A DNA stretch of 42,121 bases, taken from the NCBI GenBank assembly GCA_022843175.1, contig JALHOE010000062.1, positions 1 through 42,121 on the forward strand, given 5' to 3'. The stretch is from Deltaproteobacteria bacterium (lineage in GTDB: Bacteria > Myxococcota_A > Polyangia > Polyangiales > JADJMO01). This document shows positions 1,242 through 16,062 of this stretch, piece after piece (within the stretch, counting starts at the first letter, position 1; every line of letters starts with the position of its first letter). Under the pieces are notes generated by a model, which had not been told where the DNA came from, did no database searches, and was given only the letters and a program-made list of their open reading frames with translations. The position numbers were made by a program, and so were the translations under genes.

Positions 1242-1619
1242 ATGAGGGTCATGCACCGGAATGCGGCGTCTGTCATCCTCGTTGCCCTGTCGGCGGGGTG
1301 CGGCTCGCGTGTCGGGCCCGAATCCTCTTTCGTCGACAGCGGAGAGGCCGCTGACGTGCGGCCTGACGTGCGCGTGGACAGCGCGCTCCCCGCCGACTGC
1401 TGGAGGTACGAGGACTCGTTGTGTTCGCACCCCACACCGTGCAAACCGGTCGGCGACGGCAGGTGTTATCGGCGATGCGCCAATGACTCCGAGTGCCCCG
1501 ACGTAGCCTTCCCGAAGTGCGTCCAACCGTGGCTCTGGGGCTTCGGCGACTATTGTCAACGCGCATCCTTTCAAGTTTGTATGGCCAGTGACCCCACGAT
1601 CTGTCGCTATCCGCCGTGA
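1242..1619 (+). CDS. Small Cys-rich lipoprotein
   Basis: 125 residues. I chose ATG 1242 because AGGA lies about 6 bases upstream; ATG 1251 and ATG 1209 are in frame alternatives. A signal peptide (VILVALSAGC) ends in a lipobox, followed by an Asp/Ser/Val-rich linker and a Cys-rich domain. That domain includes CWRYEDSLCSHPTPC, CYRRCANDSECPD and two further Cys near the C-terminus, so several disulphides are likely. The CxxDSEC motif recurs in many myxobacterial secreted proteins of unknown role. Predicted outer-membrane or periplasmic lipoprotein; function unknown. Confidence 0.75.
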   Translation: MRVMHRNAASVILVALSAGCGSRVGPESSFVDSGEAADVRPDVRVDSALPADCWRYEDSLCSHPTPCKPVGDGRCYRRCANDSECPDVAFPKCVQPWLWGFGDYCQRASFQVCMASDPTICRYPP

Positions 1620-1671
1620 CGCCGTCAGACAGCGTGCGGCCTTCCAATTTACGGCGCTGTGCGTGGAGCGC

Positions 1672-1971
1672 ATGATTGGCGTGATGGAGTGGATCTATTT
1701 CATTCACGCGCCGCGCGAGAGCTTCGCCGACACGATGACCGACGACGAGAAGCAGACCTTCGCCGCGCACTTCGCCTATCTCCAGCGTTTGCTCGCCGAC
1801 GGCACGCTGATCCTCGCGGGCCCGACGCTCGGCAAGTTGAACACGGGCATCTGCGTGTTCACGGCGCCGGACCAGGCCGCGGCGGAGAAGATCATGAACG
1901 AGGACCCGGCGATCGCGAGCGGTCTCACGCGCGGCGAGCTACGCCCGATGCGGGTCGCGCTGAAGCGTTAG
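1672..1971 (+). CDS. YCII-domain protein
   Basis: 99 residues. ATG 1672 has GGAG at about 5 bases; ATG 1684 (MEWIYFIHAPR) is an in-frame alternative that fits the family start better. It matches the YCII-related dimeric ferredoxin-like fold: WIYFIHAPR strand, the helix DEKQTFAAHFAYLQRLLADG, the ILAGPTL strand with conserved Gly-Pro, then GICVFTAPDQAAAEKIMNED and the final LRPMRVALKR strand. Some YCII proteins are enzymes such as chloromuconolactone dehalogenases, but most are uncharacterised. Its TAG stop overlaps the TAA stop of the convergent kinase gene by 3 bp. Confidence 0.85.
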   Translation: MIGVMEWIYFIHAPRESFADTMTDDEKQTFAAHFAYLQRLLADGTLILAGPTLGKLNTGICVFTAPDQAAAEKIMNEDPAIASGLTRGELRPMRVALKR

Positions 1972-4900
1972 AACTGGCCGATCCAGGCAGCGCGCGCGCG
2001 CGCGGCCGCGGCGTCGGCGAGGTGCGCTTCGTCGACGCGGCCGAGCTGGCGAAGGAGATCGGCGCGTCGGGCTTCGGCGATCGCGCGCACGTGGCGGTGA
2101 CCGTCGGCCTCGGCGAGCCGCGCCGCCTCGGCGAACCCCAGCGCGGCGCGCTCCAGCTTGTGATCGAGCCACGCCGCTTCGGCGTCGATCAGCGCGGACT
2201 TCGCGGCGAAGTTCGTCGCGCAGTCACTGGCGTAGCCGCGTAGCTGACGCGCGATCCACGAGAGTCGCACCCGAGACCGCAGCGTGCCGACGCGCGCGAG
2301 GCAGAGCGCGTGGACGAACGCGTGCTCCGCGGAGTGCATCATGCCCCGCGAGCCGCCCGACAGCGGCGCCGCGCGCTCGATCGTTGCGAGCGCCGCGGCG
2401 ATGTCCCCGCGGACGTATGCGGTGAAGGCGGCGGCGACGAGCTGGAAGTGCGCGAAGTGCGGCGAGCCGTAGGTCGCGAGCGTGGCGTCGTCGGGGGCGA
2501 TCGCGCCCGGGTCCTCGCCCCGCAATTGCCGGATCGCGCGTTGCACGGCGCCCAGCGTGCCGATCGGCTCCTGCAAACGCATCGGCACGATCGTCTCGAG
2601 GAGCCGATTCGCCACCCGCTCGATCTCGTCGAGCGGCACGCCACGCATCCACTGGCTCATCACCATCGCGGCTGCGGCGCAGCCGATGTGGAACAGATCG
2701 CGCACCTGCAATCCGGCGTCGAAGGCCTCCGCGTACAGGGCCTCGGCCTCGATCGCCGGTCGCATCCACGACGTCGCGAAGTACGCAACCACGAAGGTCA
2801 CCTCGGCGCGCTGTCGTTCGTTGCGATAGCGGTCGACGATCGCGCGCGCCAGCTTGCCGTATTCGTAGCCGACGCGGTGCCGTCCGAGCACGCCGCCGTG
2901 GAAGATCGCGCCGTGAACCATGTAGCCGATCGCGGCGTCCTCGGCGTTGCCGTTCCGCAGACAGAGGTCGACCATCTTGTTGGCGACCGTCACGCACAGC
3001 TCGGGGCGCAGCTGATACGCCGCCTTGGCGAACGCGGCCATCAGCTTCACCGCCATGTGCGTGCGCGGATCGGTCGTCTGCGGCAGCTCGGCGACCGACG
3101 CGATCGACCGACCGCGCATCCGCAGCGCGAGGAGCGCGAGGTCCTTCACCAGGATCGGCGGCACGAACTTCGGCGGAACGCTCACGCCGAACCGGGCGAC
3201 CGCCTCGCGTCCGAGCGCATACGCGTCTGCGAACCGTGCGAGGTCCGTGTAGTGATGGATCAGCAGCTCCTCGATCGCCGCGCGCGCGAGGTCTGTGGGC
3301 GCGAGCGCCGCCGCGCGCTTGAAGAACGCCTCCGCGCGATCGAACGCGAGCACCCGCGACGCCTCGGTGGCGGCGCGCGCGTAGTGCACGCTCGCGCGCC
3401 CCGGCTCGCCGGCGCGTTCGAAGTGGGTGGCGATCGTCTCCGGTTGCACGTCGCCGGACCGCTCGTACGTCTCGGCGAGCGCAGCGTGGAGGCTCGTCCT
3501 CGTGCGCTCGGGGAGGTCGCCGGCGACGCCCTCGCGGATGCGATCGTGAAAGCTCTCGACCTCGTCGTCGAGCCCCATGCCGGTGCCCCGAATGAGGTGC
3601 TCGCGGCGAAGGAGCGAGAGCGTCTCGTGCGGCAACGACTCGACGCCGATCGCCTCGCGCACGTGGCGCAATCGAATCGGTGCGGCGGCTACCGCGATCG
3701 CCTCGAGCATGCGCCGCGCGGCCTCGGGCAACCGCTCGACACGCCTGCGAACCGCGAGATCGAGCCCGATCGGGGCGTCGGCGATCGACGGCTCGGCCTC
3801 GATCGCGCGCGCGAGCTCCAATACGAAGTAGGGAAGGCCGGCCGCAGCCGCGACGATGCGAGCCACCCGCTCGTCGCTGACGTGGGTCCCGAGCAGCGAG
3901 CGCGCGAGCGCGCCCGCGTCGTCGTCCCCGAGCGCGCCCACCTCGATCGTCTCGCGCAGGATCCTCTGCGGCCAACGAGCTGCTCGCGACGAGAGCGCCG
4001 CGAGGGACGCGCTGCGGGTCGCGTATTCGCTGCGATACGAGAGGAGCACGAGGATGCGATGCGTGTCCGGCGCGGTGATCAACGACGAGAGCATCTCGAC
4101 CCCGTCGGCGTCGCCCCACTGCAGATCGTCGATGTGCAGGAGCAGCGTCTTCTCGAGGGCGAGGTTTCCGAGGAGCTCGATGAACGCACGGACGCCGCTC
4201 TCCCGCGCTTCTCGAACGTCGAGTCCCGCGACCGACTCGTCGCCCCGCTGCACGCGCTCGATCACCGGAAAGAGCCGCGCGAGCGCCGAGGTGTGGGGGG
4301 TCAGGAGCACGTCGCGCTCCTCGAATGGGCGATGGAGCAGGTGCCGCACGAGCGCATCGACGATCCCGTCGACTGACTTGTACGGGACCGACTCCTGCTC
4401 GTAACAGCGACCGCGAAGGACGAGGACGTCATCGCCCGCGTCGGCGAGGAAACGATCGACGAGCGCGCTCTTGCCGGCGCCGGACGCTCCGTGCAGCTCG
4501 ACGACGACCGTCTCGCCTGCGCGCGCGTGATCGAGGGCACGGTGGAGCGCCGCGCGTTGCTCGCTTCGTCCGAGGAACGGCGCGTCGACGTCCTCGGTCG
4601 CGCGCGAGCTCGCGTCGCCCCCGAGGAGCCTGTCGATCTCGAGTCCGGAGGGACGCTCCGACGGCTCGCGACGGAGCAGCGCGGCGCACAGCGCGTCGAG
4701 ATCTTCGGGGATGTCCGGATCGATCGAGCGCGCGGAGGGCGCATCGAGCATTCGCTTTCGAATGACGACGTCGGACGGTGAGCCCTCGAATGGCAGGCGA
4801 CCGGTGAGCACCTCGAACAACATCACGCCGACCGCGTACCAGTCGGCGGGCTCGCCGAGCGGCAACGCCGCGGCTTGTTCGGGCGCCATGTACAGCGCGG

Positions 4901-5588
4901 TGCCAGCGATGCTGCGCTCGGTCGAGATGTATTGCCGCGGCTCGGACGAACGCGGCCCGTCGGTCGCTTCGGGGGCGGAGCGCAGGTCGGCGACGAGGCC
5001 GAAATCGAGGATCACTACGCGTCCGTCGTCGCGCATCATGACGTTGCCTGGCTTGAGATCGCGGTGGAGCTTCCCCGCGGCGTGCAGCGCACGAACCCCG
5101 GTCGCGAGCTCGCGAAACGCGGCGCGCACCTTGGCGTGATCGACCGGGACCGTGGGCAAGCGTCCGGTGATCGCGAGGCCGACCTCATCGAGCGTATCGG
5201 CCCGCGGACGCACCGCGGTCGGCTCCTCACGCGCGAGCGTCGTGTCGGCGACGGGGGCTTTGACGCGCGGGCGCAGTGCGCTCCGGAGATCGGTCGCGCC
5301 CTCGAGGATCTCCATGGTGAAGAACCAGTCGTCGCCCTCGACGAAGAGCTCGTACAGCGGGATCAAGTTGGGGTGCGCGATGGACGCGAGCGAGCGGAAC
5401 TCCTGCTTGAAGCGGTACAGCCACGCGGCGTCCTGCTCCTGGAGCGTCTTGAGCGCGACGCGCGTGTTTCGCTCGCGATCGTGCGCTTCGTAGACGACCC
5501 CCATCCCGCCGGCGCCGAGTCGGCGCAGGAGCTCGAAGCGTCCCCCGGAGGAGAGGCGCGCGTCGCTCCGCGCGTCCGAGCTCGTCAC
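1968..5588 (-). CDS. Ser/Thr protein kinase with AAA/STAND ATPase and helical-repeat regulator
   Basis: About 1206 residues from the GTG at 5586-5588, chosen because GGGAGAGG lies upstream; a GTG eight codons earlier is also possible. Residues 18-320 form a Hanks-type kinase: glycine loop GAGGMG (25-30), Lys47, HRDLKPGN (175-182), DFG (195-197), APE (235-237). A roughly 40-residue low-complexity insert sits before the catalytic loop. A second ATPase domain has Walker A GASGAGKS (367-374) and a Walker B-like LLLHIDDLQW with Asp487/488. The rest is Ala/Arg-rich alpha-helical repeats (TPR-like). No membrane segment is seen, so it is probably cytoplasmic. The kinase-ATPase-TPR order resembles PknK-type regulators, but no C-terminal LuxR HTH is visible. 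Substrate unknown. Confidence 0.93.
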   Translation of the reverse strand: MTSSDARSDARLSSGGRFELLRRLGAGGMGVVYEAHDRERNTRVALKTLQEQDAAWLYRFKQEFRSLASIAHPNLIPLYELFVEGDDWFFTMEILEGATDLRSALRPRVKAPVADTTLAREEPTAVRPRADTLDEVGLAITGRLPTVPVDHAKVRAAFRELATGVRALHAAGKLHRDLKPGNVMMRDDGRVVILDFGLVADLRSAPEATDGPRSSEPRQYISTERSIAGTALYMAPEQAAALPLGEPADWYAVGVMLFEVLTGRLPFEGSPSDVVIRKRMLDAPSARSIDPDIPEDLDALCAALLRREPSERPSGLEIDRLLGGDASSRATEDVDAPFLGRSEQRAALHRALDHARAGETVVVELHGASGAGKSALVDRFLADAGDDVLVLRGRCYEQESVPYKSVDGIVDALVRHLLHRPFEERDVLLTPHTSALARLFPVIERVQRGDESVAGLDVREARESGVRAFIELLGNLALEKTLLLHIDDLQWGDADGVEMLSSLITAPDTHRILVLLSYRSEYATRSASLAALSSRAARWPQRILRETIEVGALGDDDAGALARSLLGTHVSDERVARIVAAAAGLPYFVLELARAIEAEPSIADAPIGLDLAVRRRVERLPEAARRMLEAIAVAAAPIRLRHVREAIGVESLPHETLSLLRREHLIRGTGMGLDDEVESFHDRIREGVAGDLPERTRTSLHAALAETYERSGDVQPETIATHFERAGEPGRASVHYARAATEASRVLAFDRAEAFFKRAAALAPTDLARAAIEELLIHHYTDLARFADAYALGREAVARFGVSVPPKFVPPILVKDLALLALRMRGRSIASVAELPQTTDPRTHMAVKLMAAFAKAAYQLRPELCVTVANKMVDLCLRNGNAEDAAIGYMVHGAIFHGGVLGRHRVGYEYGKLARAIVDRYRNERQRAEVTFVVAYFATSWMRPAIEAEALYAEAFDAGLQVRDLFHIGCAAAAMVMSQWMRGVPLDEIERVANRLLETIVPMRLQEPIGTLGAVQRAIRQLRGEDPGAIAPDDATLATYGSPHFAHFQLVAAAFTAYVRGDIAAALATIERAAPLSGGSRGMMHSAEHAFVHALCLARVGTLRSRVRLSWIARQLRGYASDCATNFAAKSALIDAEAAWLDHKLERAALGFAEAARLAEADGHRHVRAIAEARRADLLRQLGRVDEAHLADAAAARARAAWIGQF

Positions 5589-5670
5589 TCCGCGACCTCT
5601 CCCACGGATCACAGCATATCCAAAGACCCAACTGCCGGGACGTCGCGCGTCCCACGGAGGTGTTGCGGTG

Positions 5671-6611: not shown

Positions 6612-8651
6612 CTATCCGATTGCGCGTTCGAGAATGCGCAGGGCGATGCGTGCGTCGTCGCTCAGGCGAGCGGCCTCGCGTCCCCGCAGCACGCGCTGAC
6701 GAGCCGCTTCGACGTCGCCGCGTGCGAGATCGAGGTGGCCGCGGTGAATGGCGATCACGTCGGCGAAGAACTTGTTCTTGCGGAGGGCGCACTCGGCGCG
6801 CGCAAACGCAGCGAGCGACTCGTCGAGGCGCTTCAGGCAGGCGAGCGCGGCGCCGCGAATGCCCTCGAACACACCCTCGACGCGCAGATCTCCGGCGTCA
6901 CCCGAAGCGACCGCCGCGGTGCGCAGCAGCGCGTCGGCCTCGTGCAAGCGACCCGCGTCGAGCTCGAGGATGCCGAGATAACCCGTGACGATGCGCTCGG
7001 TGCGCGTCATGTGGAGGGCGCGCGCGAGGGCCAGACCGCGCTCGTAGTGATTGCGCGCGCGCGTGAGATTGCCGATCTCGAGCCACAGCGAGCCGAGGCC
7101 GATCGTGGCGCGCGCCTCGGCTTGGGGATCGTCGCCGTCGACCGCGAGCGCCAACGCGTTCTCGTGGTGGATGCGCGCGAGCTCGAGCTCCCCCAGGCTC
7201 GCGGCCACGGCGCCGAGGTGCTGCAGGAGCGCCGCGACCGCGCCCCGATGACCGAGCGAGCGTTCGAGGTCGAGGGCTTGTTCGAAGCACTGCCGCGCAT
7301 CGGAGAGCTCGCCGAGCTGGAAGTGGGCCAGACCGAGAGCGCGCTGCGCGTTCGCCGTGAGGCGCTCGTCGCCCCGAGAGAGGATGAGCGCAGTCGACGC
7401 GTCGCGCTTGGACTCCGCGAGCTTGCCGGTCGAATGGAGGATCGACGCCCGGGTCGAGAGCGCACGTGCGAGGAGCAACGGGTCGCCGGTCGAGGTGATG
7501 CACGCATCGAGCGCTGCGAGGTCGCGTGACGGATCGTCGAGCGTGAGCAGCATGCGGAGCGCGACGTTGAAGTGCTGCTCCGAGATGGCAAATGCGATGG
7601 CGGAACGCATGTTCTCGCGATCGATGGCGGTGCCGGGATTCGACTCGAACGACCGAAGGTGCCGTATCCGCAGCGCGTGCGCGCGACCGCTCGATTCGAG
7701 GACCTCTTCCGCGTGCGCGCGAACGCTCTCGGCCATCACGAGTCGAATCGGGTTGGCGTCGACGATCTCGAAGAGCCCGCGCCGCGCGAGGGAGATCGCG
7801 ATGGAGGACGCGCGCGGACCCAACTCCGAGATCGCGATCAGCCGATCGAGCGAGATCCCGCCGCGACACACCGACGCGGAGAGCAGGAGCTCGCGTTCGT
7901 CCTCCTCCAGGAGCGTCCATGCGCGATCGATGGCGCGTTGCACCGCGCGCGCGTCGTCGAACTGCTCGGGGAGACCGACCAGTCGATCGAAGACCACGTA
8001 GCCGTCTTGGCCGAAGCGCGACGCCGCGAGCTCGATGGCGAGGGGAACGCCGCCGAGCCTGCGCGCGAGCGTGATCATGGAGAGGCGACCGATCGGCCGG
8101 GGCTCACCGGCGGCGCGCATGCGATCGGAGAGGAGATCGGCGGCCCGCTCCTCGTCGAGGCCGCGTAGCTCGAGCACCGTCTCGTCGACGCCGAGCGGAG
8201 CGCGCGAGCCGCACACGACCTTCAGCGTCGGTACGTTGGCGAGAAGCTGCTCGATCGCGAGCGCGGCGAGCGGGAGGAGCGGCTCGACGTTGTCGAGTAC
8301 CAGCACGACCTCACCGCGCGCAGCGAGGACGCGCTCGGCGGCGCGCATCGCGTCGTCGGTGCGTTCGCCGCCGCACGCGAGCACGATGGTCGCGATCATC
8401 GCGTCGACGTCGCGCAGGTCACGGAGATCACACATCACGATCGTGCCCGGATCGGCGCGGCGCGATACGACGAACTTGCGCAACAGGCGGCTCTTGCCAA
8501 TCCCACTCGGGCCCACGACGACGACGAGACGATGATCGCGGACGGCGCGACGCAGACCGAGCAGCTCCTGGGCGCGCCCGACGAAGAGCGACGTCTCCGT
8601 TGGGGCGGCGGGTGCTCGTTGTATGGCACGCACTCGCGATGGCGAAATCAC
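6612..8651 (-). CDS. STAND-type ATPase with TPR-like repeats, no DNA-binding domain
   Basis: 679 residues from GTG 8649-8651. An N-terminal SLFVGRAQEL box precedes a P-loop NTPase: Walker A GPSGIGKS (47-54), Walker B VVLVLDNVE (115-123) and the VVCGSR sensor strand (145-150), an NB-ARC/STAND signature. A winged-helix-like segment follows (RELLLSASVCRGGISLDRL), then at least six TPR-like units with alternating Ala/Gly/Tyr (ALGLAHFQLGELSDARQCF, LGSLWLEIGNLTRARNHY). STAND ATPases act as ligand-triggered oligomerising switches. The protein ends at the point where its paralogue at 12272-14731 continues into a C-terminal winged helix, so its output is unclear. The upstream 159 bp presumably carries the promoter. 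Confidence 0.9.
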   Translation of the reverse strand: MISPSRVRAIQRAPAAPTETSLFVGRAQELLGLRRAVRDHRLVVVVGPSGIGKSRLLRKFVVSRRADPGTIVMCDLRDLRDVDAMIATIVLACGGERTDDAMRAAERVLAARGEVVLVLDNVEPLLPLAALAIEQLLANVPTLKVVCGSRAPLGVDETVLELRGLDEERAADLLSDRMRAAGEPRPIGRLSMITLARRLGGVPLAIELAASRFGQDGYVVFDRLVGLPEQFDDARAVQRAIDRAWTLLEEDERELLLSASVCRGGISLDRLIAISELGPRASSIAISLARRGLFEIVDANPIRLVMAESVRAHAEEVLESSGRAHALRIRHLRSFESNPGTAIDRENMRSAIAFAISEQHFNVALRMLLTLDDPSRDLAALDACITSTGDPLLLARALSTRASILHSTGKLAESKRDASTALILSRGDERLTANAQRALGLAHFQLGELSDARQCFEQALDLERSLGHRGAVAALLQHLGAVAASLGELELARIHHENALALAVDGDDPQAEARATIGLGSLWLEIGNLTRARNHYERGLALARALHMTRTERIVTGYLGILELDAGRLHEADALLRTAAVASGDAGDLRVEGVFEGIRGAALACLKRLDESLAAFARAECALRKNKFFADVIAIHRGHLDLARGDVEAARQRVLRGREAARLSDDARIALRILERAIG

Positions 8652-8810: not shown

Positions 8811-10214
8811 TCAGGCGACCTCGCCGTGGAGGTCGACGTGAACGCTGTTCGGCGAGACCGTCGCAACGAAGATCGGTAGACCACGTGCGAGCTCGTGCAA
8901 CGTGCGCCCGAGCTGACGCTCCGCCAGCGCCGTGACCTCGGCTTCGAGCGCGCGCGGATCGACCTCGGAGGACGCACAGAGGAAGTGCACCGTCTGGCGG
9001 CGGAGGTACTGCGCGACCTGCGGGTGTTGCAGGAAGATCTGCGTGCCGCCGGCCATCGGCGAGACGAGGGGCACACGCGAGTAGGCCTCTGCGTCACCCG
9101 GTATCAAGACGTTCACCACCGCGCCCTCGGCGTGACCGCCGGGGAGCACCTCGACGTCGTGCTCCGTGATCGACTCCCACCGCAGCCTGAAGAATTGACG
9201 CAGGAACGACTCGACGAGCTCGGGGCGTACGCCGTAGTCCCGGGCGTTCACGAGCGAGAGGCGCAGGTGACCGCAGCCGAGGTGCTCCGGCCGGATCATG
9301 TGATCGAGGAGGAGATCGCGCAGCTCCTCGGGCGGCGACGCGAGGAACCGTCGCCACTGGAGCGTTTCGAAGACGTTGGCGAGCGCCGCGTCGAGCCGGC
9401 GATCGGAGCGGAACGAGCCGATGAGGCGATTCTGCGCGCCGATGTCGGTGTGCAAGTAGAGCCGCCCGAAGGCGTCGAGCCGGCGGAGGAGGAGTGCGCG
9501 CAGCGCAGCGTCGTCGAGCTGTATCTTGCCGACGCGTTCGAACGCGGCGAGCACGAGGAGGAGCTCACCCGCGTCGCCCCCCGGCGCGCCGATGATCCCG
9601 CTGCCGTCGCGACCGTCGACGCAGGAGATCCGACCGGTCAGGAGCAGCGAGGCGAGCTTCATCCAGCGGATGACGCTCGGATCGCCGAGGTGCGCGGCGA
9701 CGTCGTCACGCGCGAGCACCCGATGTTCCGCGACGAACGCGGAGGTGCGCGCCGGGCCGATCGCTCCCTCCCGCGAGAGTATCGATGGGTCGCGGCTGAC
9801 CGCGAGGCCGACCTGCCGCCAGCCGACGATCCCACCCATGAGCACGGCGACGAAGCGATGCCCGCGCGACTCGAGCTCGAGCGCGATCCGCGACGCGCGC
9901 TCTTCGGTGCGGGAGACGAGCACCAACGGCTCGTCGACCGCGCGGTGTGAGAGGAGCTCAACCGCGCGGTCGAGCGGGACGTAGTCGCTACCGGGCACGT
10001 GACCGTCCGGGCCCACGATCTCCTCGGCGCGACGCACATCGACGATGCGCGCCGCGTGACCGAGCCGCGCGACGTCGTGCGGGGAGAGCAGCGGGACCCC
10101 GCTCGGTGAGCGCAGCTCCGCCGCCACCCAGTTCACGCGGAACATTCGCTCGGCCTGCGTGACTCGACCGATCGGGGGGATGCGCGGATCGTCGGCGGGC
10201 GCGGGTTGGCTCAT
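8811..10214 (-). CDS. Rhodanese-like domain fused to zeta/beta carbonic anhydrase-like domain
   Basis: 467 residues from ATG 10212-10214. Residues about 41-140 form a rhodanese-like fold (LLSPHDVARLGHAARIVDVR, GHVPGSDYVPLD, LVLVSRTEERA, VAVLMGGIVGW), but Ser101 occupies the position of the catalytic Cys, so sulfur transfer is unlikely. The rest has three motifs: CVDGRDGSGIIGAPGGDAGE (Cys198), HLGCGH (311-316, Cys314, with His305 and His311 nearby) and EVLPGGHAEGAVVNV (His361). As I recall, the cadmium/zinc carbonic anhydrase repeat of diatoms (zeta class) has CVDGR, a Gly-Pro-x-x-Gly-Gly stretch, LGCG and a Gly-x-His-x-Glu strand, and beta enzymes use C-x-D/S-x-R plus HxxC. Gene and rhodanese fold are secure; the metal-site assignment is inference. 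Cytoplasmic (no signal). Divergent from the ferritin-like lipoprotein. Confidence 0.85.
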   Translation of the reverse strand: MSQPAPADDPRIPPIGRVTQAERMFRVNWVAAELRSPSGVPLLSPHDVARLGHAARIVDVRRAEEIVGPDGHVPGSDYVPLDRAVELLSHRAVDEPLVLVSRTEERASRIALELESRGHRFVAVLMGGIVGWRQVGLAVSRDPSILSREGAIGPARTSAFVAEHRVLARDDVAAHLGDPSVIRWMKLASLLLTGRISCVDGRDGSGIIGAPGGDAGELLLVLAAFERVGKIQLDDAALRALLLRRLDAFGRLYLHTDIGAQNRLIGSFRSDRRLDAALANVFETLQWRRFLASPPEELRDLLLDHMIRPEHLGCGHLRLSLVNARDYGVRPELVESFLRQFFRLRWESITEHDVEVLPGGHAEGAVVNVLIPGDAEAYSRVPLVSPMAGGTQIFLQHPQVAQYLRRQTVHFLCASSEVDPRALEAEVTALAERQLGRTLHELARGLPIFVATVSPNSVHVDLHGEVA

Positions 10215-12271: not shown

Positions 12272-14731
12272 GTGGGGGGCCCGTTTCGCAACCTCGATGC
12301 GCGGGCCGACGTGTTCGTCGGACGCGCCGACACGCTCGCGAGCTTGCGCGATGCGGCCCTTCAACACTCGCTTTTGTTGGTGCTCGGCACCGCGGGCGCG
12401 GGCAAGACGCGAACGACGATCGAGCTCTTCACCCGGCATGGCCGCGAGCTCGGGCCGGATGGCGCGTGGTTCGTCGATCTGAGCGAGGTCACCGACGAGG
12501 CGGGGATGTTGGCGGCGTTCGCTGGCGCGCTCGGGATCGCGCTCGGGAGCAACGCGGCCGAGCGCGTGGCGGCCGCGGTCGCCGCCCGGAGACGCGCGGC
12601 GTTCCTGGTGGACGACTTCGAGAAGATCGTCGCGTCGGCGCCGACGCTCGAGGCGATCGCGCGCGCGGCGCCCGAGGCGCGGTTCGTCGTCACGTCCCGC
12701 GAGGTCTTGCGGATCGGCGAGCACCGCGTGGAGCTCGGGCCGTTGGCGTCCGCGGAGGCGGTCGACCTCTTCGTCGCGCGTGCGGGGACGACCCCGAACG
12801 ACGACCTCCGCGCCCTCTGTGACGAGCTCGAGGGCTTACCCCTGGCGATCGAGCTGGCCGCGTCGCGTGCACGTGTCCTGTCGCCCCGTCAGCTGCGCGA
12901 TCAACTTCATCGCCGCTTTGATCTGCTGCGCCGCGAGGGCGGCGGGCGTCGTGCCACGCTGCGTGGCGCGATCGACGTGTCGTGGGAGCTCCTCTCGGAG
13001 AACGAACGGCGGGTCCTCGCGCAGTGTTCGGTGTTCCGTGGCGCCTTCACGCTCGCTGCGGCCGAGGCGGTCGTGCGCGCGGAGGGCTGGGTGCTCGACG
13101 CGATCCAATCGCTCGCCGACCGCTCGCTCGTCCAGGTCGTCGTGGCCGAGCCGGTGCGCTATCGCCTGCTCGAGAGCATCCGCGAATACGCGCGCGAGAA
13201 GCTCGCCGACGCGACGGTCGAGGAGCGCCACGCCGACCACTTTCGTACCGCCGTCATGACCGAGCTCGATCGCGAGAACGTGATCGCCGCGCACCGCTTC
13301 TACCTCGCCAGGGGCGACATCGAGGCCGCGCTGCAGACGCTGAACGCGCTCGATCGACTCCTTGTTTGGCGCGGACCCACGACCCTCCGCCTCGCGCTCC
13401 TCGACGCCGCGCTCGCCGTGCCTGGTGGCACTCCTGCGACCCGCGCGCTCGTGTTTCTCCGTCGAGCGGGCACGCTCCTCGAGCTCGGGCGCGCAGCGGA
13501 CGCCACCGCCGATCGAGAGCGCGCGCGGGAGCTCGCCGTCGGCGATCGCGAGGTCGAGGCGCGGGTGCTCGAGTCGTTCGGCCTCGGCGCGTGGCACGGC
13601 GGCGACATCGCCGGCGCGCGCGACTATTTCGAGCGCGCCGGCGCGGCGTTCGACGATCCCGGCCTCCGCGCGCGCACGCACGTGTTCCTCGCCAACGCGC
13701 TCTATTTCCTCGGCGCGGTCGACGAGGCGCGCAGGCTCTATCAACAAGCGAGCGTCACCCTCCGTGCGGCGGGCGATCTGCGAACGCTCGCGCTCGCGGT
13801 CGCGAACCTCGGCAGCCTCGAGCACGACCTCGGCAACCTCGACGCCGCGCGCCGCGGCTACCTCGACGCCCTCGAGATCGAGCAACAGCTCGGCATGCGG
13901 AGCGACGAGGGCATCGCCCAGATGAACCTCGGTCACCTCGCGCTCGAAGCGTTCGACATCGACGCGGCGCGCGCACTCTACGAGCGCTCGATCGAGATTC
14001 AACGCGAGGTCGGCAACCGCCGGTGGCAGGCGATCACCCTCGGTTACCTCGGTCTATGCCACGAGATCGCTGGACGTCGCGACGAGGCCCGCGACGTCTA
14101 CCTCGAGGCGATCGCGAAACACGACGAGGACGGCGACGCGGTCTTCGGCGGGCTCACGCGCTGTTGGCTCGCGCGGCTGCAGGGCGCCCGCGGCTCGTAC
14201 GACGAAGCACGCGCCACCCTCGCCGCGGGGCGCGCGTCGATCGCGCGCGGCGGCGCGACGCTGTTCGAGCACGTGGCCACGGTCTGCGAGGCCTCGATCG
14301 CGAGGGCCGAGGGCCTCCCGCCGGTCTCGGTCGACGCCGCGCGCACGGCGATCTCGAGCGAGGTTCGCATCGCGCTCCGGATGCTCGAGTCGCAGCGCGC
14401 CTCCTCCACCGCGTTGGTCGTCTCCACCTCCGGAAGGAGCGCGACGATGCCCGACGGCACCCGGTTCGACCTCGCCACCCGAGCTCCCCTGCGCCGACTC
14501 CTGCTGGCGCTGGTGGAGCTCCGTCTCGATCGGCCCGGCACGGCGCTGACGCTCGACGAGCTCGTGCAACACGGCTGGCCCGGCGAGAAGCTCGTGGGCA
14601 CGACCGGCCCGGACCGGGCGTATGCGGCGCTCTCCACGCTGCGAAAGCTCGGCCTCCGCGCCGTGCTCGTCCGGCGCGACGACGGATACCTGCTCGACCC
14701 GGCGGTCCCGCTGCGGCGCGTCGAAGACTGA
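12272..14731 (+). CDS. STAND ATPase-TPR regulator with C-terminal winged helix
   Basis: 819 residues from GTG 12272 (GTG 12311 just before the VFVGR box is less likely). The N-terminal ATPase has a VFVGRADTL box, Walker A GTAGAGKT (39-46), Walker B AAFLVDDFE (109-117) and FVVTSRE (138-144). Then come a winged-helix-like STAND segment (RRVLAQCSVFRGAFTLAAAE) and many TPR-like repeats (ALYFLGAVDEARRLYQQA, LGSLEHDLGNLDAARRGYL). The last ~94 residues (726-819) look like an OmpR/BTAD-type winged helix: RAPLRRLLLALVELRL, LTLDELVQHGWPGE, YAALSTLRKLGLRAVLVRRD, GYLLD. DNA binding from the C-terminus is the reverse of the SARP/AfsR order. It is paralogous to the 6612-8651 protein. Likely a cytoplasmic transcription regulator; signal and targets unknown. 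Confidence 0.9.
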   Translation: MGGPFRNLDARADVFVGRADTLASLRDAALQHSLLLVLGTAGAGKTRTTIELFTRHGRELGPDGAWFVDLSEVTDEAGMLAAFAGALGIALGSNAAERVAAAVAARRRAAFLVDDFEKIVASAPTLEAIARAAPEARFVVTSREVLRIGEHRVELGPLASAEAVDLFVARAGTTPNDDLRALCDELEGLPLAIELAASRARVLSPRQLRDQLHRRFDLLRREGGGRRATLRGAIDVSWELLSENERRVLAQCSVFRGAFTLAAAEAVVRAEGWVLDAIQSLADRSLVQVVVAEPVRYRLLESIREYAREKLADATVEERHADHFRTAVMTELDRENVIAAHRFYLARGDIEAALQTLNALDRLLVWRGPTTLRLALLDAALAVPGGTPATRALVFLRRAGTLLELGRAADATADRERARELAVGDREVEARVLESFGLGAWHGGDIAGARDYFERAGAAFDDPGLRARTHVFLANALYFLGAVDEARRLYQQASVTLRAAGDLRTLALAVANLGSLEHDLGNLDAARRGYLDALEIEQQLGMRSDEGIAQMNLGHLALEAFDIDAARALYERSIEIQREVGNRRWQAITLGYLGLCHEIAGRRDEARDVYLEAIAKHDEDGDAVFGGLTRCWLARLQGARGSYDEARATLAAGRASIARGGATLFEHVATVCEASIARAEGLPPVSVDAARTAISSEVRIALRMLESQRASSTALVVSTSGRSATMPDGTRFDLATRAPLRRLLLALVELRLDRPGTALTLDELVQHGWPGEKLVGTTGPDRAYAALSTLRKLGLRAVLVRRDDGYLLDPAVPLRRVED

Positions 14732-14784
14732 TTTTGGATCCATTTGGAGGCCGAAAATCGGCGCGAAAGGGAGAGTGCTCCCCC

Positions 14785-16062
14785 ATGTCGCGATACCTCC
14801 TCCTCGTGCCCTTCCTCGTCGGTTGCGCGGCCGCCGCCGAGACCAAATCCTCGACCGAGGCCTCCGATTCGGACATCTCCTCGGAGACCGTCGTCGCGAG
14901 CGAGGACACCGGGAGCCCGAGCGAAGAGGACACCGGCCGGCCGAGCGAGGAGGACTCCGGGCCGCTCCCGGACAGCGCGGCCATGGATACCGCTCCGCCC
15001 CTGGCTGACACCGCCGCCCCGCCGTCCGAGGAGTGCAAGAGCTACCCCTTCGCCGCCGAGACGTTGCTCGCGGAGAAGCTCGGCTTCGGCGCGTCGGCGA
15101 AGGGCGGCGATCCGAAGAAGGTGTTCCGCGTGAAGAGCCTCGCGGACAGCGGCCCGACGACGTTGCGCGCCGCGCTCGAATCGACGGAGCCCTATTGGAT
15201 CGTGTTCGACGTCGAGGGAACGATCCTCCTCGGCGAGGACGCGATCCGACCCAAGTCGAACAAGACGGTCGACGGCCGCGGGCGCGCCGTCGTCGTCGAC
15301 GGACTGATCAAGATCGGCGCGGGGACGAAGAACCTGATCTTCAGCGATCTGACGCTGCAGTACCCGCGCGGCTTCAAGACCAGCAGCGGCGACACCATCT
15401 CGATCAGCGGCCACGCCGGCGCGTCGGCGGACGCCTACGACACGCGCGACATGTGGTTCCACCACCTCGAGCTCGGGCGCTCGGGCGACGGACAGATCGA
15501 CGTGCGCGGCGGCACCAACATCACCATCTCGTGGACGCACCTGCACTCGCACGCGAAGGCGTTCCTCCACCAGAAGGACGCGGACAACCTGCCGTCGCCC
15601 TTTATGCGCATCACGTATCACCACAACTGGTTCGAGAAGATCACGCGGCGCGGGCCGCTCTTCTATTACGGCCAGGCCGACTTCTTCAACAACTGGCAGC
15701 ACCAGTGGTACGAGTTCGGCGCGTCGAGCAACTCGGGCGCGCAGTTCCTCAGCGAGAACAACATCTACGAGGCGCGGCCCGGCACGTATTGCATCCCCGG
15801 ATGCCCCGACCCGAACAGCCCGACGGGCGACAGCGACTACCAGGTCTCGAAGGAGGCTCTGGTGTCGGGCTGGGCCGGCGAACCGGGGTATATCAAGAGC
15901 GTCGGAGACCTCGCCCTCGAGGGCGCGAAGATCGCCACCAACAACCCGACCAAGGTCTTCGACCGCGCGACCTTCTACGCGGCGAAGCCCGAGGTCGCCA
16001 ACGCGGAGCTGAAGGCGCGACTCAAGGCGTTGACCGGCCCGCGCAAGACCTACTGCAAATGA
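14785..16062 (+). CDS. Pectate lyase-like secreted lipoprotein (PL1 type)
   Basis: 425 residues from ATG 14785 with GGGAGAG about ten bases upstream. The signal peptide MSRYLLLVPFLVGC gives a lipobox at Cys14, then a ~75-residue acidic Ser/Thr/Pro linker with an exact 24-base repeat. The mature domain is a right-handed beta-helix of pectate lyase family 1: GFGASAKGGDPKKVFRVKSL, SLADSGPTTLRAALE, VFDVEGTI, NKTVDGRG, GDTISISG, DMWFHHLELG, GDGQIDVRGGTNITISWTHL, MRITYHHNWFEKITRRGP. The DG-Q-ID-V-RG and HHNWF blocks are the family's calcium and substrate regions; Arg in ITRRGP is a candidate catalytic base. Predicted to cleave polygalacturonate by beta-elimination at the cell surface, a nutritional role. 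Activity not proven. Confidence 0.92.
   Translation: MSRYLLLVPFLVGCAAAAETKSSTEASDSDISSETVVASEDTGSPSEEDTGRPSEEDSGPLPDSAAMDTAPPLADTAAPPSEECKSYPFAAETLLAEKLGFGASAKGGDPKKVFRVKSLADSGPTTLRAALESTEPYWIVFDVEGTILLGEDAIRPKSNKTVDGRGRAVVVDGLIKIGAGTKNLIFSDLTLQYPRGFKTSSGDTISISGHAGASADAYDTRDMWFHHLELGRSGDGQIDVRGGTNITISWTHLHSHAKAFLHQKDADNLPSPFMRITYHHNWFEKITRRGPLFYYGQADFFNNWQHQWYEFGASSNSGAQFLSENNIYEARPGTYCIPGCPDPNSPTGDSDYQVSKEALVSGWAGEPGYIKSVGDLALEGAKIATNNPTKVFDRATFYAAKPEVANAELKARLKALTGPRKTYCK
14902..14964 (+). repeat. 24-bp tandem repeat in the pectate lyase linker
   Basis: Two adjacent 24-base units (14902-14925 and 14926-14949) plus a partial third differ by a few bases. They encode EDTGSPSE / EDTGRPSE / EDSGPLPD in the acidic linker between lipobox and catalytic domain. 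The unit is in frame, so copy-number changes would alter linker length without breaking the gene. Confidence 0.7.

Follow-up and report, generated by a model that had tools for sequence, protein, structure and literature searches.

A rhodanese-linked protein of Myxococcota as a distant bacterial branch of the zeta carbonic anhydrase superfamily

The question raised by the locus at positions 8811-10214 of the window (the whole analyzed stretch of 42,121 nucleotides, contig JALHOE010000062.1 of a Deltaproteobacteria bacterium) is what kind of protein is formed when a rhodanese-like domain is joined to a domain with carbonic anhydrase (CA)-like motifs. A preliminary description, made from the letters alone, had called it a rhodanese-like domain fused to a zeta/beta CA-like domain. 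The features discussed below are as follows.

8811-10214, minus strand: whole open reading frame, rhodanese plus zeta-CA-like domain, 467 aa plus stop.
9816-10064, minus strand: rhodanese domain, residues 51-133 (Pfam PF00581, E 2.7e-8; PDB matches BpPRF, YgaP and Alr3790).
9912-9914, minus strand: Ser101, at the position of the rhodanese catalytic Cys (Ser invariant in alignment A1).
8814-9722, minus strand: zeta-CA-like domain, residues ~165-467 (hhalign against zeta-CA; AF2 model with VIA-align).
9609-9623, minus strand: CVDGR motif with the proposed ligand Cys198 and the Asp200-Arg202 pair (invariant in 44 relatives; aligns with CDCA1 CVDGR).
9444-9452, minus strand: HTD motif with the proposed ligand His255, and Asp257 (invariant in 44/44; aligns with CDCA1 VHGD).
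9267-9278, minus strand: GCGH motif with the proposed ligand Cys314 (invariant in 44/44; aligns with CDCA1 LGCG).
9123-9140, minus strand: GGHAEG motif with His361 and Glu363 (invariant in 44/44; counterpart of CDCA1 GSHTE).

The gene and its rhodanese domain

The reading frame is a genuine gene: it runs uninterrupted from ATG to stop, and its GC content by codon position (0.77/0.46/0.88) has the pattern of real genes in this DNA. The rhodanese fold expected from the preliminary description was confirmed over residues 51-133 by the Pfam match and by VIA-align (Z up to 12.9), while NCBIfam returned weak rhodanese-type matches only. In comparison, one-sequence searches of Pfam, NCBIfam and PDB gave no match for the C-terminal part (residues 150-467). 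The catalytic-loop position, which had not been commented on before, is occupied by Ser101 (loop LVSRTEER), and since Ser replaces the catalytic Cys, the rhodanese domain of this protein is probably not a sulfurtransferase. Its best-scoring rhodanese relative is BpPRF (5VE3-5VE5), a persulfide dioxygenase-rhodanese fusion, in which, however, the rhodanese retains its Cys and is joined to a dioxygenase of the metallo-beta-lactamase fold.

Relation of the C-terminal domain to zeta carbonic anhydrases

The preliminary description had proposed a profile comparison with CDCA and with beta-CA. The zeta-CA profile (A5) consisted of 11 sequences, i.e., 8 Myxococcota PF18484 proteins and 3 diatom repeats, and the CDCA1-R2 sequence used was identical to PDB 3BOB when compared. 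Against this profile, the 29-member family gave hhalign scores of 39.5 in local mode (probability 66%, E 5.7e-5) and 38.5 in global mode (probability 88%, 190 aligned columns), versus maxima of 24.9 and 13.6, respectively, in 150 column shuffles of A5. With 44 family members, the global score was 34.1 versus a shuffle maximum of 14.8, and the three diatom sequences alone gave a weak alignment (probability 8-9%). The family and zeta-CA aligned collinearly through CVDGR, PGG, HTD (as HGD), GCG and GxHxE, the paired family/CDCA motifs being CVDGR/CVDGR, HTD/VHGD, GCGH/GCGF and GGHAEG/GSHTE. No family member matched the Pfam CDCA model (PF18484) at its curated cut-off of 29.2 bits, no significant PF18484 match was found in the window's own genome, and the HMMER family profile had no match to the C-terminal part among PDB chains.

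Beta-CA was rejected as the parent family: the global score was 1.5, which is at shuffle level, there was no Pfam match to PF00484, and beta-CAs of the same phylum reached a local score of 25.3 solely through a 29-column GCG stretch. Thus, the zeta half of the earlier label was supported and the beta half was not. The sites of zeta and beta CAs are known to resemble each other, and beta-CA (PF00484), together with the COS/CS2 hydrolases of that fold, is similar in general terms in its C-x-D-x-R, His and Cys ligands; nevertheless, the global profile scores did not rise above those of shuffles, and the spacing and the GxHxE strand differ.

With the full-length AF2 model, the fold-search matches were taken up by the rhodanese domain, and the modelling of CVDGR was poor, so the C-terminal domain was folded alone. 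The resulting template-free model, based on an alignment of nine sequences only, had a pTM of 0.81 and a mean pLDDT of 79.5, with low pLDDT in the CVDGR stretch and a weak stretch (57-60) next to it. In the VIA-align 2 comparison with PDB, CDCA1 entries filled ranks 1-5 (Z 7.5, 7.3, 7.0, 6.6 and 6.4, over 167-175 residues with 15-20% identity), and the next, unrelated chain had a Z of 4.0. The match comes from this second-look aligner only: Foldseek gave no significant E-values and no CDCA among the top 50. A Z of about 7 taken alone is weak and could reflect a common arrangement; what makes the match strong is that all entries of one small, pre-chosen family took the first five places.

At the residue level, Cys198, His305, His311, Cys314 and His361, which the preliminary description had listed, were all found at these positions in the translation. 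Among 44 distinct relatives, C198, D200, G201, R202, G212, G213, G216, E226, Y253, H255, D257, G313, C314, G315, R330, W346, L357, G359, H361, E363, F394, L446 and P447 never vary, and a 29-row alignment (A4) had the same conservation picture. Because the relatives were extracted with a filter requiring [CS]xDGR, PGG and GCG, the free evidence lies in the other positions and in Cys rather than Ser at 198. The invariance of Cys198, Asp200, Arg202, Cys314, His361 and Glu363 indicates that the motifs first noticed are not due to chance. The proposal of His305 or His311 as a metal ligand had to be abandoned, since these are His in only 27/44 and 32/44 relatives, respectively. The CDCA histidine aligns instead with His255, which is invariant (44/44) within a YLHTD motif missing from the earlier list. 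Indeed, the CDCA1 ligand positions C40, H92 and C102 of the 3BOB sequence, which we take to be Cys263, His315 and Cys325 in the usual numbering, align with C198, H255 and C314, so that the complete Cys-His-Cys set with the Asp-Arg pair (D200, R202) is present at the CDCA positions. In CDCA1, the site consists of two Cys and one His and binds Zn or Cd (PMC8659172). By this alignment, Cys198, His255 and Cys314 very likely form a metal site as well.

The domain thus shares with CDCA1 of Thalassiosira weissflogii (PF18484; PDB 3BOB, 3BOH, 3BOJ, 3UK8 and 7BEZ) the motif order CVDGR, PGG, H-x-D, GCG, G-x-H-x-E and the putative ligand order, in addition to the fold matches. It differs in its low identity and the missing Pfam CDCA match, in some 50 additional residues between His255 and Cys314, before LGCGH, in a C-terminal extension and in being a single domain behind a rhodanese, whereas CDCA1 has three repeats. 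The strongest profile match was to Myxococcota PF18484 proteins (L039-L046), which have the same motifs and belong to the same phylum but are stand-alone proteins of about 210 aa without rhodanese and form a separate family. Such PF18484 proteins (L039-L046 and G188:C2:384357-384860) exceeded the cut-off in 9/284 Myxococcota genomes and share 45-53% identity with the CDCA1-R2 repeat of the diatom enzyme.

Overall, we are highly confident that the C-terminal ~300 residues are homologous to zeta (CDCA) carbonic anhydrases as a divergent member of that superfamily. The profile match and the top-ranking CDCA1 folds also support the earlier suggestion that a metal center related to that of diatom CDCA is joined to a rhodanese fold. 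Such a protein represents a remote bacterial offshoot of the zeta-CA superfamily, joined to a new type of partner domain. A literature search found no paper joining rhodanese with zeta-CA. A survey of CA genes in microbes, published in 2026, still describes most of the rarer classes, zeta included, as thought to be largely diatom or protozoan (PMC13098186).

Distribution and family tree

Relatives were found at nine loci in public genomes, eight of them full-length with 46-55% identity; the carriers are Myxococcota or delta-proteobacterial MAGs, and one is Minicystis rosea. A profile of the C-terminal part matched in 23/284 Myxococcota genomes (about 8%), and a profile with more members in 59 of the 318 sampled genomes of the class to which the window belongs (19%). 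No relatives were present in the plasmids and viral contigs searched. At one locus (L136, G220:C32:29594-30273), the family gene is apparently split over two frames, perhaps as a pseudogene or through an assembly error.

In a tree of 63 rows, rooted by midpoint only, the window protein falls into a cytosolic clade of 39 rows (support 98/97), with a Ser-rhodanese in 36/39. A lipoprotein clade of 18 rows (support 98/92) has the rhodanese Cys in 14/18, usually as CRSGRRS; a lipobox is seen at the start of its members L026, L028 and L037 and less clearly in L029 and L036. Under this midpoint root, neither clade includes the stand-alone domains that lack a rhodanese; these domains are mostly beside SulP.

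Gene contexts and the activities they suggest

The relatives occur next to bicarbonate-type channels or among genes of sulfide oxidation, and these contexts point to an undescribed bacterial family of CO2- or COS-processing enzymes. A bestrophin gene (PF25539, E 7e-64 in L007) adjoins the family gene at eight loci of the Ser clade (L005, L006, L007, L059, L107, L109, L110 and L138), an adjacency for which the tree requires five changes. The two genes of L059 are on the same strand with a 4-base overlap. Since the genomes contain only 0-5 bestrophins each, chance adjacency is unlikely. Genomes G140, G409 and G411 have one bestrophin beside the family gene and a second beside a beta-CA gene, and in G236, too, a bestrophin adjoins a beta-CA gene. 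Thus, the bestrophins there pair with carbonic anhydrases, and the myxobacterial bestrophin/beta-CA neighbors (G140:C26:25633-27068, G409:C488, G411:C921, G236:C23) may represent a bacterial channel-CA pair.

For the cytosolic clade, we somewhat favor metal-dependent CO2 hydration as the main activity. A single catalytic metal, Zn or Cd, would be coordinated by Cys198, His255 and Cys314. As is the case in CDCA and beta-CA, the hydroxide bound to this metal would be oriented by an Asp-Arg pair, here Asp200-Arg202, and the enzyme would interconvert CO2 and bicarbonate. The N-terminal rhodanese, having lost its catalytic Cys, may be kept as a structural or sensing module, and where bestrophin (a bicarbonate/chloride-type channel) is the partner, as in several relatives, the pair might couple bicarbonate flux to CO2 hydration. 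A replacement of missing beta-CAs was ruled out: the window's genome has four beta-CA matches, leaving no gap to fill, and most carriers of the family gene have one.

The sister branches have a different context. SulP, the DUF6691/YeeE halves (PmpAB) or persulfide dioxygenase (PDO) were located within about 6 kb in 13/27 rows without a Ser-rhodanese versus 0/36 Ser-rhodanese rows (Fisher 1.9e-6, a statistic that ignores kinship), and further rhodaneses also occur among these sulfur-type neighbors. The DUF6691 and YeeE-half neighbors are of the PmpA/PmpB type (compare PMC11582611), and the PDO-like neighbor is an MBL protein. L071 has PDO first, then rhodanese, PmpA (DUF6691), PmpB (YeeE half) and SulP, and finally a divergent stand-alone domain; thus, parts fused elsewhere exist here as neighbors. 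The SulP of L071 is nearer to plant/animal sulfate/anion transporters than to BicA (481 versus 94 bits). Elsewhere in the window's genome (L002, contig C22: 33414-36767), a beta-CA-like ORF with an N-terminal hydrophobic stretch, 2606-3262(-), is the immediate upstream neighbor of a persulfide dioxygenase-rhodanese ORF, 1537-2586(-), with an intact CQTGKRS loop, as another carbonic-anhydrase-type gene beside sulfur genes.

These sulfur genes of the sister branches suggest that the substrate may be other than CO2. The main rival to the CO2 hydratase, which we regard as rather unlikely, is accordingly a CA-fold hydrolase that would use the same Cys-His-Cys metal to split COS or CS2, with H2S and CO2 as products; the rhodanese, PmpAB, persulfide dioxygenase and SulP would take up, oxidize and export the sulfur, and the cytosolic clade would descend from this sulfur system. 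Besides the uneven distribution of sulfur genes and the gene order in L071, it is favored by the retention of the rhodanese CRSGRRS loop in the lipoprotein clade, by the beta-CA-like gene just upstream of the PDO-rhodanese gene in L002 and by the hydrolysis of CS2 that Alterio reportedly described in 2021 for a diatom zeta-CA (cited in PMC12163698 and PMC8659172). However, COS/CS2 hydrolysis is often a side activity of CAs, SulP can carry bicarbonate too, and the window's own clade has neither nearby sulfur genes nor the rhodanese Cys.

The window gene itself has no bestrophin or other informative partner adjacent to it. It is flanked downstream by a STAND-type NTPase with TPR repeats (6612-8651, minus strand) and upstream by proteins without a Pfam match, and the neighborhood is variable between loci of its clade. 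Also in the window are a Ser/Thr protein kinase-AAA protein near the family gene (1968-5612, minus strand) and an ORF with a pectate-lyase domain in its C-terminal part (12982-16062, plus strand; E 3.6e-15). The variable neighborhood, together with the four beta-CA matches in the genome and the fact that rhodanese domains without Cys are commonly regulatory, would suit a non-catalytic protein in which the zeta-CA fold and the metal site are retained for sensing or binding metal, sulfide or bicarbonate; the rhodanese would then be a further sensory module for the control of transport or signaling. We consider this improbable, as the full ligand set with the Asp-Arg pair is invariant over 44 diverged members, a pattern more readily explained by catalysis than by decay of the site. 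An unrelated metalloenzyme whose motifs converged by chance could explain why one-sequence and HMMER profile searches gave no match, but it is very improbable given the independent agreement of the profile-profile, fold and residue evidence.

A speculative history, which we consider unlikely in this full form, would place the origin of the family in a sulfide/persulfide-oxidation cluster. The ancestral form would have been a stand-alone or lipoprotein COS/CS2 hydrolase accompanied by active rhodanese, PmpAB, PDO and SulP. In the cytosolic clade, once the rhodanese Cys was lost, it would later have been converted into a CO2/bicarbonate enzyme linked to bestrophin. Most descriptions of zeta CAs concern diatoms, so a distant family from bacteria that carries the same putative site widens the class. 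Moreover, with its rhodanese fusion and its two kinds of gene context, this one family allows CO2 to be compared directly with COS/CS2 as the natural substrate.
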